Source: Spiroplasma endosymbiont of Diplazon laetatorius
Lineage (GTDB): Bacteria > Bacillota_I > Bacilli_A > Mycoplasmatales > Mycoplasmataceae
DNA: 64,000 nucleotides
NCBI RefSeq assembly: GCF_964019625.1
Contig: NZ_OZ026458.1
Span: forward strand, 310,001-374,000
Direction of reading: 5' to 3'
Numbering within the stretch: the first letter of the stretch is position 1; the number at the start of each line of letters is the position of its first letter. The notes below the pieces were generated by a model that saw nothing but the letters and a program-made list of their open reading frames with translations, was not told the origin of the DNA and made no database searches. The position numbers and the translations under genes were made by a program. Shown here one piece after another: positions 2,286 through 44,121 of this stretch.

Positions 2286-3290
2286 ATGAAAAAAATATTA
2301 AGTTTTTTAGGGACAATAACTTTAGTTTCAATGACTGGTGCTAGTGTTGTCGCGTGTAATAAAACACCAGTTGATGAAGTTATAGATGAGGCTCAAGACC
2401 CTATTATAGAGAGCATTGAAAATAAGACAATCAAAGTGGGGAAACAAATTGAATTTAAAATTACTATTAAAAATAGAATTGAAAATGAAAAAATATCTTT
2501 TAAGATAGATGATAGTTCACTTTTAAGTTTTGATTATAATGAGGAAACAGAGATAGCAACCTTAAAAGCTATAAAAGCAGGAAGAACAAAAATAATATTA
2601 GAATATAAAAATGCAAAGAGTATTTCTTTTGATGTTAATATTTCCGAAGAGGAACAAAAACCTTTACAAAAAATCCAACTTGATGATTTACAAGGTTATT
2701 TAGGATACTTGAAAAACTTTAGCGAAAAAACAACAATAAATGATTTAACTGAAATAGATAAAAAAGAACTTTTAAAAAATTTATTGATTTCAAATAACAT
2801 AAATGATAATTTAGATATTTATATTGCTGATATTGAAATGATTACTTTTAAAACTAAAAATAACATAAATAGATATTTCGGTATAAAGTCTAAGCAAAAC
2901 TCTGAAATAATAGCGGGTAATAAAGATGACATTTTCTTTAGAACAGAAACATTGAATTTCAATAAATATAATTTATCTACAAAAGGAACAAATATTGAAG
3001 ACGACCTTCTTTCAGAAAATGAAAAAGAAAATGAAATCGCAGTAAAAAATGCCATATTAAACTTATTCATAAGAGTGAATAAAGAAGAACATCCAATATC
3101 AATAAAAGATATTGATATTGAAGCTGGAAGTGCCAAAAATGGATATGAAGTGACAAGTAATTATGAAGTAGTTATTTTTTCAAAAGAAGGACAAGAAAAT
3201 AACTCTGGAAAATTGACTTTTCAATTTCAAACTTTCTATCTTGGTGGAAAAATTATTGAAGTGGACATAAAAAAACTTTTTAACAAATAA
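2286..3290 (+). CDS. lipoprotein with Ig-like N-terminal region
   Basis: A 334-residue surface lipoprotein. Its N-terminal signal peptide MKKILSFLG ends in the lipobox SVVAC with lipidated Cys24. Residues about 45-115 read like a bacterial Ig-like (Big-type) beta domain (KTIKVGKQIEFKITI, then KAGRTKIILEY). The remainder is hydrophilic and unassigned. GGAGAG at 2271-2276 lies 9 bases before the ATG. Transcription appears to come from the homopolymer-spacer promoter just upstream, so expression may switch on and off. The ligand or role is unknown. It is closed by the terminator at 3308-3343. Confidence 0.85.
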   Translation: MKKILSFLGTITLVSMTGASVVACNKTPVDEVIDEAQDPIIESIENKTIKVGKQIEFKITIKNRIENEKISFKIDDSSLLSFDYNEETEIATLKAIKAGRTKIILEYKNAKSISFDVNISEEEQKPLQKIQLDDLQGYLGYLKNFSEKTTINDLTEIDKKELLKNLLISNNINDNLDIYIADIEMITFKTKNNINRYFGIKSKQNSEIIAGNKDDIFFRTETLNFNKYNLSTKGTNIEDDLLSENEKENEIAVKNAILNLFIRVNKEEHPISIKDIDIEAGSAKNGYEVTSNYEVVIFSKEGQENNSGKLTFQFQTFYLGGKIIEVDIKKLFNK

Positions 3291-3307: not shown

Positions 3308-3343
3308 TGACAAACTTTTATTAGTTTGTTTTTTTTTTTTTTT
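3308..3343 (+). terminator. intrinsic terminator with 15-T tail
   Basis: The stem ACAAACT / AGTTTGT is followed by 15 T (3329-3343). The T-run is unusually long even for this genome. Confidence 0.8.
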
Positions 3344-33713: not shown

Positions 33714-33742
33714 AAAAAATCGCTTTATTTAGCGATTTTTCT
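33714..33742. terminator. bidirectional terminator
   Basis: AAAAATCGCT / AGCGATTTTT, 10-bp stem with A and T flanks, between convergent genes; it serves both strands. Confidence 0.85.
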
Positions 33743-36222
33743 TATTTTCTTTTAATTGATTTTATTTGTCAATCTAAAGCTCCTGCTTCTAATAACAATT
33801 TAATTTCATAGTTAAATGTTTTTTTAGTGTTTGGATCTTTATAAGTTGTAGTGTAAGTTATACCAGCTTCATCCATACCTTGATCAATTCCATAATGACT
33901 TTCAACTTTTGTTTTAAAATTATTATCTTGAATTAATGGTTTGTATACTGTGTTTGACAAGTTATTTTTTACAGAGTTTACTTCAGCAAAACCTTTAACA
34001 ATTTGATCTAATAGACTGTCAACTGATTTATCATCAACTATTTTTTCTAAACCTGACAATAAGGAATCTTGTCTAAATTCTCCTAATTGTTTTCCGTTTG
34101 CATCAAAGTTTGTTCCTAATGCATACATAGCAGCTTTTGCTCCTGTAATAGAGGTATTTTTTACTCCATCTACTGAAATATATAGACCGTTTAGACCAGA
34201 AGTGATCATTAACACTTGAAGTGCAGTGTATTTATTTTCTGCATTTGAACCAGTCCCATTATAAGCGTTTCCATTTTTTGTGAAAATAGAATATTTTGTA
34301 TCACTTAAAGCTTTCGAAATGTCTTGTAATCCATTTGCCATTCCCTTGGTTTCTTGTTCAAGTTCTTTTAATTTTTGATTATTTGGTGTTGAAGAATTAA
34401 TTGCATTGTATATAAAGTCTAGTATTTCACTAATAGTTTTTCCTTCATAAACAGGACCTGCAAGTATTGTTTCAAGAGAAATGTTATTTTCCCCTCCGAT
34501 AACTGTTTTTAAGAAAGTTGATTCTTTACTTCACAAAGCTTTTCAAGATTCCTTTAAAAGTTTATCATTCTTAAATCTGAAAGGCACATTAACTCCGAAT
34601 GTTTTAATAAAATCGAATAGTGAATCAAGACCGCTTATTGATCTGTTTTCAACAAAGTTGTCAATAGCACCTTTTAAAATGTTACCCACTTGAACAGGCC
34701 CCACACCTATACCCAGAACGGTATAATTAATATTTTGTCACTTACCTATACCATAACCAAGTGCAAAAATTAAAGATGAGAGTCCCTCTGAACCTTCATA
34801 ATATCCACCAAGTCCAAGTAAAAAACCAGTTATTTTTATAGTTCAACCACCAAAACCAGGTTTATCTAAATTAACTATTTTTTCACTACCTGATTCAAAT
34901 AATAAAGAAAATAACTTAGCTGTATTTAAACCTTCTGAATCTGAATTTAAAGCAATTGATAAATTCTTAAATAATAATTTTGTTTCAAATCTTTTAAAAT
35001 TATTAGAACCTAATAGTTTTAAATAGTCTATATTTTTATCGCTTTCACTGAAAAGATTTTGGTTATTAGAAGGTTTAAAACCTCCAAAATCAACACTAGT
35101 TATCCTTTGTAATAAACCTGTTACTACAAATAAAAGATCTGTTATGACTAAAGTTATGTTTGAAGTGTTAATGTTGTTCAGATTTTCAAAGAAAACACCC
35201 ATTAATTCTCCAAAATCTTTTTCAAATGTATAATCAACATCTGAATATAAAACATTTACATCTTTTACGATTTTATCTGTTTGTCCAGATAAAGCTGCAA
35301 AAACATTATAAAGTCTTCTGTTTGTTGCGTTCATAACTTGTTTGTTAGTCATGTTTTCAACTTTATCCATTGTTAAAACTGAATTTACTAACATATCAAA
35401 AGTTGGAATTAATATATCAAAGTGATTCATTAATTCTAATAAACCAATTATTAAGGGAACAAAATTAACACTTGATAATGCTGACATTAAACCGTTTGTA
35501 ATGTTTGTTTTACCTTCTTTTGAATCATTTAAGAAATTAGCATTTAATAAATTTGAAATTAGACTATAAGCCAAATTTGAACCTGATAAAGCTTTAATTA
35601 ATATTGCTAATGGAACTGCTGCAGAATCTAATAATTTTGAAATATCTTCCATTGGTCCAACACCACTTGCTGCTGAAGGAGAAAGACCTAATTCTGGTAA
35701 TAATCCTTGAATTAAACCAGAAAGACTTGGGTGAACACCACCATTTGATTTAATGGCACTAATTATTAAAGTTAGCATACTTCCTAATGAATCTGCTGAT
35801 CCAACTGGAGATTTAACTTGATCTGTTAAAAATGCACTATCACTATAGCTTGGATTTTCACTTTTGCTTAAATTATTAATTTCATTTCTGTTAATGTTTT
35901 GTCCATTAAAGTAATTTTTCATTAATGAACCAACAGTTGTTTCTGAATCAGTTTTAAAACCTGGCATTAAAGTTTTTGCTTTACCAGAATTTATTAATCC
36001 TGTTAAGTAATCTGCATCATATGCAAGTTCATTTGCTGCAAGTGTGTCTTGACTAGCATTTTGAATCATAGCACCTCTTAAGGCTGTTGATGATACTTGT
36101 GTTAAGTTTTGAATTTTATTTTTTATTGAAGTTTTTATATTGTTAACTGTACTACATGCAGCAACACTTCCTGTTGATGCTGTAATAGATATAATTCCTA
36201 AAAAGGAAATTAACTTTTTCAT
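33742..36222 (-). CDS. large lipoprotein A, 826 aa
   Basis: A minus-strand lipoprotein continuous through several TGA codons. The signal peptide MKKLISFLG ends in the lipobox SVAAC (Cys23). The mature part is long and mostly helical, with LRGAMIQNASQ near residue 50, VHPSLSGLIQGLLPELGLS near 160, and AKAAMYALGTNFDANGKQ in the C-terminal third. All three blocks recur in lipoprotein B immediately upstream, so the two are full-length paralogs. AGGGGT lies upstream of the start. Function is unknown; a surface adhesin or a partner of the divergent permease are possibilities. Confidence 0.88.
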
Positions 36223-36313: not shown

Positions 36314-36343
36314 GATAAAAAAAGAGCTTAATAGCTCTTAGAT
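36314..36343 (-). terminator. terminator of lipoprotein B
   Basis: On the minus strand AAGAGCT / AGCTCTT forms a hairpin starting at the stop codon and running into a T-run. Confidence 0.75.
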
Positions 36344-38764
36344 TTTTTTTATAGAGTTAACTTTTCAAGAAGATTCATTAACTTCCAATACAATGTTTAT
36401 TTCATAAGTAAATTTTTCATTTGAGAAGGGGTTTGTATAAACTGTTTTATAAGTTATTGATTGTCTGTCGTTTGGCTTATCAATATTATCTTGTGTTATT
36501 AATTTAGTTTTAAAGTTTTTATCTTGGATCAATGGTTTATAAACCTTATTAATAACTTCATCATTAATTTTTTTAATATCGTTAAAACCTCTTGAAATAT
36601 CATCAAAAGAGTTTCAAATGATTGAATCATCAATAATTTCTTCAAAACCAGCTAAAAATGAAACTTCTCTAAACTTATTCATGTTTTGATTACCATTTGA
36701 ATCATAATCAGTTCCTAATGCATACATAGCAGCTTTAGTTCCTTTAATATTTAAATTTTCAGGTTTATTTTGATCTTTTGATATTATTAAACCTCTACGT
36801 TTAGAAGAAACAATAAAAGCTTGTAATGCATTGTAAGTACCTTTTTCATTGGTGCTTCCTTCTTTAAATTGTACTAATTTACCTTTACTTTGATATCACA
36901 AAGTATAGTTAATATTGTCTATTTCACTTGAAATAATTGAAATACCATTTTTTAACTTATCTCCTTTTTGACAAACAGCACCAGATATAGAATTATAGAT
37001 TAAGTCTAGAATATCTGATATTTTCGTTTTTTCACCTATTTCGGTGTTAAATAAAGAATATAAACTCGTTTGTAGTCCAAATAAATCTTTAAATAAAGTG
37101 GAATCTTTATCTCATATTGCATTAAATAATTTTTTTAATTGAAAAGTTGTGTTATCACTCACTTTTAAATCTATTTCAATAAACCCTGATAAAATCTCTA
37201 AAACTTTATTTAAACCACTAAAATCAGAGTTATTACCCAATCCATCTGTTATAACTCATCTAAATAAGTTACCAACTTGATCCGGTCCTATAACTTTGGC
37301 AACAGATCATTTTTGCCAAATAGCTACTCCTTTACCAATACCATACACCAGAGATGAGTAATTGTTTTTTTCGTTTCCAATAACTGAAGAAGACAATTTA
37401 GTAAATAAAGAAAAGGCATTTATTTTTTCGTCTATATTTGTGGGTTTTTTACCTGAGTTGAATAATAGATAAAACAGCTTTTGAGCTTGTTTACCATTAT
37501 AGTTAGTTGTTGTATTTGTTATTGCTATTAAGTTTTTTAATAATATTTTTGTACTAAATGGGTTTTCTTGCATACTTTTTTTATTTAGTTCTTCTATGAA
37601 AGCATTATTATCTTTTTGATCACTAAATAAATTATCATCGTTTTTTGGAGAAAAATCTGTGAAATCAACACTTGACATGTATTTCAATAAAGAACTTATA
37701 ACAAATAAAATATCCACTATATTTTCTGGTTCGCTTATAATTGAAGTTAATATGGCTGTAAAATTAAGATCATTAAAGTTTGTTCCAAACTTTTGTAAGA
37801 AAACTCCTATAATATCTCCTAAATCTTTATCAAAATTTCTTGATAAACCTGTATATAAGGAGTTATTATCTATTATTTTATCGTTCTGCCCAGAAGATCT
37901 TGCAAATATATTATTAACTCTTTTTAAAGATGCATTTAATATAGATTGTCCTGTTAACTCTTGTGCTGGCTTATCTAATGTTAAAACAGAGTTTATTAAT
38001 AAATCAAAAACTTGTTCCATACCATTTGCTTTAAATTCTTTTAAAAAGTTACCTATTCATTTTGTAATTTCTGAAGTATTTTTTTCTTTTATGGCATTTT
38101 CAAATTCTGAATTAAACAAGTTTTTCAATAGTGAATAAAAAGAGTTTGATTCTTGTAAGAAAACTAGTGTTTTTGATAAAGGATCACTTATTTTATCAAT
38201 TAACTTTATAAAAGGTGCTATTTTTTTGCTATCTAGAGACTGAGTTAAATCATCTGAAAGATTTAAACTTGGCAATAATCCCTCTATCAAACCAGAAATG
38301 CTGGGGTGTAGACCTCCATTAGTTTTTAAAGCACTTACCAATAATACAAAAGTGCTAGAAAAACTATCAATTGAACTCACTGGAGCTTTAACTTCATTGG
38401 TCAAAAAGTTATTATTCATTTGGTTTATTGATTCTCTGTTTAAGTTTTGGTCTTCAAAATAAGTTTCTTTAAGTTGGTTTAAAGTAGAGTGTTTATCTGT
38501 TTTAAATTTAGGTATGATATCAGATGCTTTGGAGTTACCTATTAGGTTATTTAAAAAATTAGAATCATATGCAAGTGTCTTATCTTTTCCTTGACTTGCA
38601 TTTTGAATCATGGTCCCTCTTAATAGTGCAGAAGAAATATCAATTAAATTTTTTACCTTATTTTTTATTGATTGAGACTTATAGTTTACCATACTGCAAG
38701 AGGCAACACTAAAAGTGGATGCTGTTAAAGAAACGGCCCCCAAAAAAGTTAATAATTTTTTCAT
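36338..38764 (-). CDS. large lipoprotein B, 808 aa, paralog of A
   Basis: Signal peptide MKKLLTFLG with lipobox SVASC (Cys23). Colinear with lipoprotein A: LRGTMIQNASQ, LHPSISGLIEGLLPSLNLS, TKAAMYALGTDYDSNGNQ and YKPLIQDKNFKTK match blocks of A in the same order, but identity between blocks is modest, so the duplication is old. One Trp here is a rare TGG (37316-37318). GGGGGA precedes the start. It is divergent from the giant permease gene across a 158-base gap. Confidence 0.88.
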
Positions 38765-38862
38765 TTTTATCCCCCGATATGTTTTATTATATTTTTTATT
38801 TGTGATAAAATTCTTTTGGAATATTAAAGGTTTTTTTCTTTTTCAAATAAAAATGAAAGAGA

Positions 38863-38889
38863 TTGAAAAAAAAAAAAAAAAACTATAAT
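38863..38889 (+). promoter_or_regulatory. permease promoter with a 17-A spacer, possible phase switch
   Basis: -35 TTGAAA (38863-38868) and perfect -10 TATAAT (38884-38889) are separated by 15 bases that are 14 A plus one C; the whole A-run is 17 (38866-38882). Slippage of one or two bases would bring the spacer to or away from the optimal 17. This is the same architecture as the variable lipoprotein promoters of Mycoplasma hyorhinis. Boxes and run are seen; switching is inferred. Confidence 0.8.
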
Positions 38890-38922
38890 ATATGTTTATT
38901 TCTAGTCGGGGAATTAAAAGAA

Positions 38923-41900
38923 ATGAAAAAGTCAATATTTTTATATTTAAAACAAGGGATAAAAGGGGTCCTGCGATTTAAAATACAATTTATAGTAATT
39001 GTTATTTTAAGTTTTTTAGCAACATTCATTTTGAGTGTTTCTTTGTCGTCAACAAATAGATTAAGTAATGATTATGATCAAACAATGTCAAAAATGGATA
39101 AGTTTGATTTTATAAACGAAAAAACAGTAGGTTTAAATTCTTCTGATGAAGTTTCTACATACATTTATTCAAGCATGGATGTAATCAATAACCAGTTTAA
39201 TTATGTTCACAATAGTGAAGATCCTTCAAATGAAATAACTAATAAAGCAATTGAAGCAAATCACAACTTAGTTCTTTTAGAAGATAACAAAGATTATCCT
39301 GATACATTTATATCAAAAACTTTTAGAGATTCTGAAGTTCAACTTAAGTTTTTAAATATGATAAGTGATTTTAACTTTTTTTACAGCATTTTTAGATATG
39401 AATATAATGAGTTAACTGAACAAACAAATTGAGATCCTTATTGAGATAATTTAGGAGACCCTGAATGAACTTCTTGAAATTATGTCCAAAACGGTAAATG
39501 AGGAGCAAATTCAAATCATGGTTATGACGAAGCTGAAGATGGTTTTGGTACAATAGGTAGATTTTATATTCCTACTTTAGAAAAACTTAAACAAAATTAC
39601 TTAAATGATTTATTTAATGAGCAAGATACTCCTGCTTATGTAAAAAATACTCTTTTTTGAAAACTAAAAGAAGAAGGTTCGATAGATAAAGAACAATTGG
39701 AAAAAACTAAACTTACAGACAATGATGACAGAAATATCTATAGCAGATATTTATATTTCTCATTGGAAGGAATTCTTAGACAATTAATAAGACAATCTAT
39801 TGAGTATCCTGCTTTCTGAATAAACCAAGCTATTAAGTCTTCAGAATCAAAAGATTTGGACTCTGTTGTTTCGGAATTTAATAAAATAAGTGTAGAAGAA
39901 AATATTGGATTTAAATGAGTTTTTAAAGATGATACTGAAAATATAAAAAAATATGCAACTACAATTTTTGCTTGAATTTTTGGTATAGATATAAATAGTG
40001 ATGTTAATGGATATACAATAGATGAGGAAATCAAAAACAAATTCCTAATTAATGAAGAGAACAAAGCTTGAAAAAATTCTTTAGATTTAAGTGTCTCATA
40101 TTCAAAAGGAGACTTTCTTAAAAACAAAAGTGAAGTTTTTGCTAAGGGTATGCGTGGAAGTCTTTCTCAAATAACAGCAAATATTAACGAAAAAGGTCTT
40201 GTTAAAAATTATGGTAAAACTTTTGGAGCTGATTTTTTAAGACATTATAATGGTAAATCATTAGAAAGAAGTTTAGATTATGCTACTAAGTTTTCATATT
40301 TAAACAACTACGATAAAGAATTTAATTACTCTAGCATAAAAACTCTACACGCTTTCTTCTTAAGATATAAAATATTGGCTGATGCTTTTGGTTTTGATTA
40401 TGATGTTAGGGGTGAAGCCTACTACACAGATAATGTGGAAGAAGTTACTTATAGAATTATTGATATTGATCAAAATACAGATGCTTTAAAAAATTTAACC
40501 CTTTATTCAGGTAATATGCCTAGAACAAGAAATGAAATTCTTATCGGTCAACAATTTGCAACATCAAACAAATATAAAATAGGTGAAAATATAAAAATTG
40601 GGGGAGGTAACTTTGTAATTTCTGGATTTGCATCAGAACCGCTTTCTTATTACCCAATGGTTGATACAAATAACCCATTACCAAATAGTAAAAAATCAGC
40701 AATAGTTTATGCAAATAATTATGTAATGAGTCAAATAGAAAGTCGTGCTTATCAAAAAAATATAACTAAAATATTTTATAATTTTCTAACTACAAAAGAA
40801 GGTGAAGAAAAAATAGGTATTCAAAAAACCAAAGAGTACAACTCATATTTATTTTCTAATGTGGAAGACTTTTACAATCACTATAATTTTATAAATAATG
40901 GTAGAAACTTTAAAAAGTCTTCAGTGGATGATTATAAGGACTTTGAATCAAGTGTGTTTAAATTAAATTGACAAATAGCTCCATTAATAATTGGTGTTTT
41001 TAAAATATTGTCATATATATTTTGTTTAATAATTTTTGCAATAACAATAATTGCAACGGTTGTTGCTGTTAAAAAAACAGTAGAACTTAACTCTGGTGAA
41101 ATAGGTATATTAAAAGCTATGGGTGCGAGAAACTCTGAGATCTCTTTATCATACATTTCTTATGGTATAGTTGTAATGCTTTTTACAGCCCCGTTGGCAT
41201 GAATAACGGGGTCTGTAATTCAAGAGTTTATAACAAAGGTATTTTTCCAATTTAGTTCAGGTAAATCAAGTATTTTATATTTTGATGCCTTATCATTGGT
41301 CATATCAATATCTGTCTTTGGTTTATTATTATGCTTTATTTCTTTCTTTACTGCTTATAGAGTGGTTAAGAGACCAACAATTGAAATAATGAATAAAAAA
41401 GAAAATGTAAAAAGAATTGAATGATTAGATAAAATGAAAAATTATATAATTCGAAATAAGAAATTCTCTAGTCGATTTAGTTTTGAACTTGCTGTTTCTG
41501 GTTTTTCAAAAACCATGCTTACTTCTTCTACTGTTTTCTTTGCAGCATTCTTTGTTTCATTTGGTCTTACAATTCCTGGGATTGTCCAAAATGTTGTGGG
41601 TAGTTATTATAAAAATGTAAACTATTCTAATTCTTATGAAAATATAGATTTAATAGGTAATGCTCCATTAGCAAAAACAACAATCGCTCCAACAAAATAC
41701 ATTGATAAATATGAAGAAAATCTAATCGATAGTAAAGATATATTTGGAAACGGTATTTCTCAAATATCTAAAAATATTTCTGATTTTGCAGCAAATCCAG
41801 ATAATTCTGCAATACCACAGTTACTTTTAACAGAGAAAAATGGTTTAATAAGTCCTGAATGAACATATGAAACTATGCTTGGTTATAACTCTATGAATAA

Positions 41901-44121
41901 TTCTTTATTAGCCTCTATATCAAGTATTTTGGGTAATAATATTGCTCAATTATTAGGTAAAGGTATATCTGTTTCGGATATTCAAAAAATGTTAGAATGA
42001 AAAATTCACTTTAATGACTATTCTGATTTTGCTTCAAGAAAAAAAGATATAGATGATGTCTCTCAATTATTAACTGATGGTTTACCAGCTATACTTACAA
42101 GTTTTATAGAAGGTTCAAGTGTTAGTGAAGGTAATTGAAAAGAACAAATTGTAGATATAATTATTTCACAAACACCACCATACATAAAACAATATGTTAC
42201 TAGAACAGAAAATAGATTGAATAACTTTCAATTTGGTTGAGAAATAAGTAAATATATACCTGGTGTAGACAACTTCTATACTAAACTTGATATAGAAAAT
42301 AATGATAAAAGAAAATTTACTATAACAGGTTTAGATCAAACTCAAAACGCTTATAAAATAGATGACTATTTAAGACATACGGTTTTCACAAACGACTATC
42401 AAGCTAATATTTTGAAAAAAATATTAAAAGGTGACAACAATATATCCCAAGAGGAACTTGATGATGTCAATAATTTTTATGATAAAAATACAAAAACATT
42501 AAACATTCCTGTAATAGCAAATCAACAAACTGACTTTGATTTGGATTCAAAATGAGATATTTTAAATAACCCTTCAATAAATAAAAGTAGACTTGTTATA
42601 AGGGACGGTTCTGTTGATATACCAAATGAAGCATGAATGTATAATGATGAAGATTGAATGAAATATAATAAGAACTATAAAAATAATACAAGTGATTATT
42701 TTATGGAAATGAGTAACCTTTCAGCTTCAAAATTCACTTATGCACCAATTTTTGATAAAAATAATAATTTGATGGATAACTCTTATGGTTTCTATAACAT
42801 TGATAGAAAAATCACAAAACAGGGAGAAGAATTAGATTTAACTATTAGACCTTATTATTCATTTGATAATATAAATCTTTTAATACCAAGTGCTTATAAA
42901 GGTTCTTTCCAAGAATTAATTTCTAAGGGAAATAAAAATAAAGAAAACCTGTGATATCAAGCAGAAGTTTCAAGTACTGAAGTTCCAGAAGTTACAAAAA
43001 AAGCATGATCTAAAATTGATAATAGTTTTGCTGATTCAAGTTATTTCTCTATTAAACCGTATTCAATGTATTTTGATCCTAGAAATAATTACGAAAAAGA
43101 AGATCAAAACCTATCTGGAAAGGCCGTTGAAAATATAACTGCAGCAAATGAAACTTTTTTTGGTAGAAATTTAAGGGATTCTAATGGACCAATAGCTTTT
43201 GGTACAAAAGAACTAAATTGAATTAATAAAAACCCAAATTTAGATAAGATTCAATTTAAAAAAGTAGGTCAAATAGATGTTTATGGAAGTTCTTTAATAA
43301 TTGGTGATCAAAGTATTATGAACATTTTGAATGGTTATGATATTTCTAAATACACACCATTTAACTTTATATATGAAGATAAAAGTGTTCCTTCAAAAAG
43401 TTATTCAAAAGATGGAGTAACAATTCAAACTTTTGATTATATTGATCCATTAAAATATTTAGAAGAAGATGGAGAAAGTTTTAATAAAGACTTAATATTT
43501 GGTGAAACAGATTTTGAAAAAAGCATCAGACCAAGTCAGTGGTACAACGGTGTTCTTTCTAATTCTTCTGAACCGCTTTTTATAACAACTCAAGCTTCTT
43601 TCTCAAGAATTATGAAGTCTGGTTTTGAAGCTGTTAATACACCAATGTATGGAGATTCTGGACTAGAGATAAGTTCAACAAAATTATTGGGACAACAAAA
43701 AGCAATGATAAATCAAATGTCTGCAATAGTACTTTCTATAGCAACTATTGCAATATCTTTATTGGTCATAATAATAATATTAACAATAACACTTATAAAT
43801 GATTTATATGTAAATCAGTATAGGAAGTTTATGGTTGTTATGAAATCGTTAGGATATTCTAATAGAAACATTATTCTATATACATTTGGTGTAGTAACTC
43901 TTCTTTCAACAATATCTTATATTGTTGGAGTGGTTCTAAATTTCACTGTAATATATATTTTATTCTCTATTATAAGTAAAAATTATGGTTCTATGCCTTT
44001 TGGATTCACTTGATGAACTCCTATTATAGCTATAATATTGGTATTTGGTTCTTTCTTTGCATCAATTGCAATTACAACAAGAAAAATAAGAAAAGAATCA
44101 CCTTCAATTCTTATGAGATAA
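38923..44121 (+). CDS. giant FtsX/MacB-like permease, 1732 aa
   Basis: One frame without TAA or TAG from 38923 to 44121, with many TGA (Trp) and one TGG (43540-43542). Topology by eye: membrane helix at about 18-42, a large outside domain (about 45-680), three or four helices in about 690-890 (including KKTVELNSGEIGILKAMGARNSEI, the FtsX-type loop), a second large outside domain (about 900-1590), and three helices at about 1595-1720 with FMVVMKSLGYSNRNI. This is the duplicated FtsX arrangement. No ATPase gene is adjacent. GGGGA lies about 10 bases before the ATG. Confidence 0.88.

Follow-up and report, generated by a model that had tools for sequence, protein, structure and literature searches.

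The closest described system to the one considered here is Vlp of Mycoplasma hyorhinis, in which the promoter region of vlp contains a poly-A tract (Citti and Wise 1995, summarised in PMC10502178). In M. mycoides subsp. mycoides, the promoter spacer of Vmm carries a dinucleotide repeat (PMC10502178, PMC2628566). With NadA and nspA of Neisseria meningitidis, it is repeat or homopolymer length in the promoter region that tunes transcription (PMC2791445, PMC6389960). P78 of M. fermentans, which belongs to an ABC transporter operon, is phase-variable via frameshifting at a coding poly-A (PMC2831843).

The window, i.e., the whole 64,000-nucleotide stretch of DNA that was analysed, is from a genome of 979,438 bp (G000; translation table 4), and this genome was compared with 19 congeners, giving 20 Spiroplasma genomes. 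As those congeners include S. monobiae (G009), S. cantharicola (G001), and S. floricola (G019), the window genome and its relatives are Apis-type spiroplasmas. The locus consists of a giant permease gene, its promoter, and two lipoprotein genes on the opposite strand:

38863 to 38868, + strand: -35-like hexamer TTGAAA of the permease promoter (direct reading; TTG kept in orthologs G007, G009, and G019)
38866 to 38882, + strand: A17 homopolymer, filling the spacer and overlapping the -35 hexamer (direct reading)
38884 to 38889, + strand: -10 hexamer TATAAT of the permease promoter (conserved in orthologs G007, G009, and G014)
38903 to 38913, + strand: conserved leader motif TAGTCGGGGAA, just before the permease start codon (similar in most congeners)
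38923 to 44121, + strand: giant FtsX-domain permease, 1732 aa in table 4, with TGA as Trp (ORF translation, PF02687)
38786 to 38791, - strand: TATAAT, -10 of the divergent lipoprotein gene (inspection; conserved in orthologs)
36338 to 38764, - strand: divergent MOLPALP-like lipoprotein, 808 aa (TIGR04547 E 3.7e-13, below cut-off; LP_plasma above cut-off)
33742 to 36222, - strand: second MOLPALP-like lipoprotein, 826 aa (profile matching)

PF02687 matches the permease in two stretches (E 9.8e-21), with its 74.5 bits above the gathering score of 25.5. Matches to the permease are found in 58 of 60 genomes of the genus, family, and order, and a sequence search for relatives of solved structure returned none. 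The TIGR04547 test of the MOLPALP lipoproteins gave 48.8 and 41.7 bits, not reaching the curated cut-off of 65.

Upon direct reading, positions 38863-38889 consist of TTGAAA, 14 further A, a C (38883, the single base separating A17 from TATAAT), and then TATAAT, exactly as the original prediction had it. TTGAAA and TATAAT are 15 bp apart, and the permease ATG, at 38923, is 33 nt past the -10. That spacing had been taken to be two short of optimal, with gains of A consequently strengthening the promoter. The distance to TATAAT stands. The shortfall is uncertain, however, since an alternative -10, TAATAT at 38886-38891 (+ strand), overlaps TATAAT and sits 17 bp from TTGAAA. With two candidate -10s, that is, it is ambiguous which is used and hence which run length would be ON, and ambiguous as well therefore is the direction in which gaining A would act. 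A generic promoter scan did not separate the permease site from shuffles, with support for the promoter instead being comparative. The pattern TTG-A10+-N0-12-TATAAT is matched at only 2 sites in G000 and at 3 among the 19 congeners, versus 0 for the reversed control. As to the leader, its CGGGGGAT occurs also in the leader of the divergent lipoprotein gene. TCGGGG is found just 5' of the start codon in both of these divergent leaders (38903-38913 on the + strand and about 38771-38778 on the - strand), is kept in most congeners, and is unlike a standard AGGAGG ribosome site. An RNA element was sought in the permease leader, with no Rfam match.

As with Vlp, there is in this mollicute a homopolymeric A tract within a promoter, located between -35 and -10, and by analogy transcriptional switching by insertion or deletion would be expected. 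Vlp promoters, though, drive a family of surface lipoprotein genes, whereas what appears to be controlled here is a giant FtsX permease. Spiroplasma, furthermore, uses T-runs too, and the run is just one of a genome-wide class of uniform length. The likeness to Vmm is in the switching of a surface protein gene via spacer length, though Vmm involves dinucleotide repeats and a single small lipoprotein rather than a homopolymer. With NadA and nspA the shared element is a promoter-region tract whose length tunes transcription, but there the organism is unrelated and NadA repeats work via repressor operators. P78, likewise from a mollicute, is similar in that an A-run makes a component of a membrane transporter phase-variable, differing in that this is by frameshift in a coding run and not by spacer length. 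The original prediction held that a phase-variable permease would be unusual, but with P78 there is a precedent for a phase-variable transporter.

The reading that I somewhat favor is that A17 is a slippable, Vlp-type spacer of a sigma-70-type promoter, such that permease transcription varies, whether as switching or in a graded manner. The permease, that is, would have a working sigma-70-type promoter with A17 as its spacer, and changes in run length, as would be generated by slippage within cultures, would alter -35 to -10 spacing and thereby alter transcription of the next gene. Output that is ON/OFF rather than graded, along with a benefit to the cell, may be supposed as well.

How A/T runs behave within these genomes bears directly on that reading. 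In G000, 31 A/T runs reach 12 bases or more, every one of which is 15, 16, or 17 long (2, 17, and 12 runs, respectively). There are 0 runs of 12 to 14 and 0 of at least 18, with 33 further runs of 9 to 11. Summing across all 20 Spiroplasma genomes gives 534 runs of at least 12, of which 526 are at least 15. Lengths are thus bimodal, i.e., up to 11 and then at least 15, with lengths of 12 to 14 representing only 8 of those 534. Ranges are also species-specific: 15-17 in G000, 16-20 in S. monobiae, and 17-27 in G007. MutS was absent from all 12 genomes tested, with 11 of 14 controls positive in the same search. Runs past about 12 bases may, in this lineage lacking MutS, expand quickly to a species-typical equilibrium length and then keep slipping. 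MutS absence as a sufficient cause of the runs was considered and rejected, as G011 is without MutS and also without such runs.

The main rival explanation, which I consider unlikely, is a neutral one. That is, AT-rich intergenic DNA without mismatch repair would grow runs to equilibrium, with promoter spacers merely tolerating them and the permease transcribed alike from A15 through A19. Consistent with such a neutral by-product are both the absence of MutS and the locations of runs in G000, which are nearly all intergenic, mostly outside of promoter spacers, and in many cases the T-tails of hairpin terminators. This rival accounts for the terminator runs, and it may hold at any single promoter. 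Two runs near one end of the window illustrate the two classes:

2213 to 2229, + strand: T17 run as spacer (TTGCTT-18-TATAAT) of the single lipoprotein gene 2286-3290, the second in-window example
3329 to 3343, + strand: T15 run, the tail of the hairpin terminator following lipoprotein gene 2286-3290, a terminator-type member of the class

Run lengths, too, do not differ significantly between classes in G000 (p 0.15), nor are runs in promoters significantly shorter than those elsewhere in G007 (p 0.08). A p of 0.008 for G009 was not used, resting as it does on three runs with the permease (A19, GTG start) left out. Many non-promoter runs, many terminator runs among them, are kept as well at orthologous places in congeners. 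Run positions, that is, are often conserved whatever the class, and conservation alone consequently is no proof of function.

Against neutrality, runs are flanked by -35 and -10 elements much more often than the local background would give. This was assessed with 77 runs from three species, chosen regardless of their flanks and, since orthologs are included, not fully independent. Relative to local background further away, TATAAT is enriched just downstream 7-fold for A-runs (p 8e-6) and 5-fold for T-runs (p 3e-4), TTG just upstream is enriched 3- to 4-fold, and both together, TTG before and TATAAT after, are found with 13 runs versus 4.1 with flanks permuted (p<5e-5). Genus-wide, runs of T13+ followed by TATAAT within 22 nt number 96 versus 14 for the reversed pattern, with A13+ giving 43 versus 23. 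A minority of runs are thus promoter spacers, and are so more commonly than by chance. Against neutrality as well is interchange of A and T with the tract kept, as seen in the G002 permease ortholog and in an ABC-ATPase promoter. The genes found behind spacer-type runs in G000 are lipoprotein genes and those for the FtsX permease, an ABC ATPase, a 77-aa membrane protein, and, from a paralogous permease operon, the 244-aa membrane protein. Such a design would seem to be reused across the genus, mostly for envelope genes (those for lipoproteins, for small membrane proteins, and for the two giant FtsX permease paralogues), which are probably tuned or switched by random changes in run length.

Also difficult to explain as neutral are arrays of lipoprotein promoters. 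In S. floricola, about 20 promoters with the pattern TTGAC-T15/16/17-(A/ATA)TATAAT stand before lipoprotein paralogues, which mostly are about 600-640 aa and score above the LP_plasma cut-off. The array spacers are mostly 14 or 15 but also 13, 16, and 19. T15-17 spacer promoter arrays before lipoprotein paralogues were noted at G019 L207-L221 and at G014 L225-L235, many with the palindrome-like ATTGATATCAAT just past the -10, perhaps an operator. The S. floricola array displays the Vlp layout with T in place of A, and here it indeed is a family of surface lipoprotein genes that follows the tracts. It resembles M. hyorhinis Vlp more closely than does the permease promoter, and the analogy with Vlp that was drawn originally is borne out by this sharing of design. 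Tract length varies between species and, in one case, within S. floricola, where tandem copies having near-identical promoters and leaders carry T17 versus T15. That pair is the clearest apparent sign of slippage found in this analysis. Within G000, two repeat copies have A17 and A16, respectively, along with other small differences nearby.

For the permease itself, orthologous promoters are TTG-A17-C-TATAAT (G000), TTG-A18-TC-TATAAT (G007), TTG-A19-CC-TATAAT (G009), TTGT-A16-C-TATAAT (G014), and TTG-A16-CAATAAT (G019), with spacers to TATAAT of 15, 17, 18, and 15 in the first four. G016, which stands apart on the protein tree, has TTGAC-A16, and one of the two G002 copies has T18 5' of TATAAT. 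The proposed placement within a promoter spacer and the proposed slippage-prone length both hold up, and are strengthened by retention of a tract of varying length and by the T-runs of this one ortholog and of the paralogous operon. The latter (genome 887421-892352, minus strand; 244-aa gene first) has in G000 the promoter T16-AAAT-TATAAT, its T-run before TATAAT being T16 also in G009 and G019, T17 in G002, and T20 in G007. Both permease paralogues thus are behind what, judged from sequence, are slippable spacers, of A in the one and of T in the other. In G014 (L138), just 5' of the paralogous permease ATG, an A16 abuts the GGAG ribosome site of the operon's second gene, possibly as a translational or transcriptional modulator.

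These same promoters render improbable a second rival, that the A-tract is a structural element, i.e., DNA that is UP-like or that makes the spacer bent or rigid, of selectively fixed length and giving steady, strong transcription of the permease and perhaps also of the divergent lipoprotein gene. The narrow length range in G000, the keeping of spacer placement in several lineages, and a divergent promoter whose -10 is about 75 bp from the A-run would all fit. The implied spacer, however, differs by species, from 15 to 18, a T-run substitutes in G002, and the tract is absent from G001, G004, G010, and G005, all of which keep the gene. More improbable still is that run lengths are mis-called, with A17 and the uniform 15-17 class products of short-read consensus calling, for though Illumina reads alone underlie the assemblies of S. 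monobiae, S. cantharicola, and S. floricola, the 12-14 gap is genus-wide despite short runs being easier to call, G007 runs reach A27, and separate assemblies agree that the tract is there.

Certain observations count against the slippable spacer as well. The run is missing from eight relatives that keep the permease gene (G001, G004, G010, G005, G018, G003, G013, and G008), with three changes of state needed on the permease protein tree, and it is present before decayed copies in G014 and G019. The G000 spread of 15-17 is narrower than free switching might give. Spacer runs are found also before the ABC ATPase and the 77-aa membrane protein, two genes that it would seem costly to switch off. 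The decayed copies are of the first permease paralogue, with several stops plus a frameshift in G014 (L008) and one frameshift in G019 (L014/L133), the A-run promoter remaining in each. Phase variation in coding sequence, at a long homopolymer, was considered for the G019 split and the G014 stops and was rejected, as the breaks occur elsewhere than at long runs.

From run-spacer enrichment, the permease orthologs and paralogue, and the S. floricola arrays, it follows that a putative Vlp-like class of slippable promoters exists within the genus, with the permease belonging to it. More tentatively, indeed with rather less confidence than for the permease promoter, there may be a genus-wide and undescribed slippage-promoter system in Apis-type spiroplasmas, consisting of dozens of promoters with A or T spacers at species-typical lengths of 15-20 bases, before lipoprotein arrays and both giant FtsX permease operons, and randomly diversifying surface and transport functions. 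A search of open-access papers found neither phase variation by promoter slippage reported for Spiroplasma nor any description of the uniform-length run class or of the lipoprotein arrays. The permease claim is of a known type of switch, with the genus-wide class and lipoprotein arrays being the more interesting finding. If true, then promoter-slippage phase variation would extend beyond the mycoplasmas of vertebrates to spiroplasmas associated with insects, for which adaptive antibody immunity cannot be the explanation, and its targets would include a large transporter besides lipoproteins. That runs of 12-14 bases are nearly absent, in addition, offers a clean natural system for homopolymer behavior without mismatch repair.

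Two further run arrangements were seen among congeners. A18 runs with -10-like elements are found 29-55 nt 5' of DNA cytosine-methyltransferase-like genes (RVFETFAGIGAQHKA) at G018 L245 and G007 L106, possibly making for a variable methylation gene. T-runs and A-runs are found also back-to-back, as palindromes, in G001 (475822-475857, 514484-514520, and 596064-596099; T17-18 A16-17), G007 (675527-675565), and G018 (541669-541692), these perhaps being bidirectional terminators.
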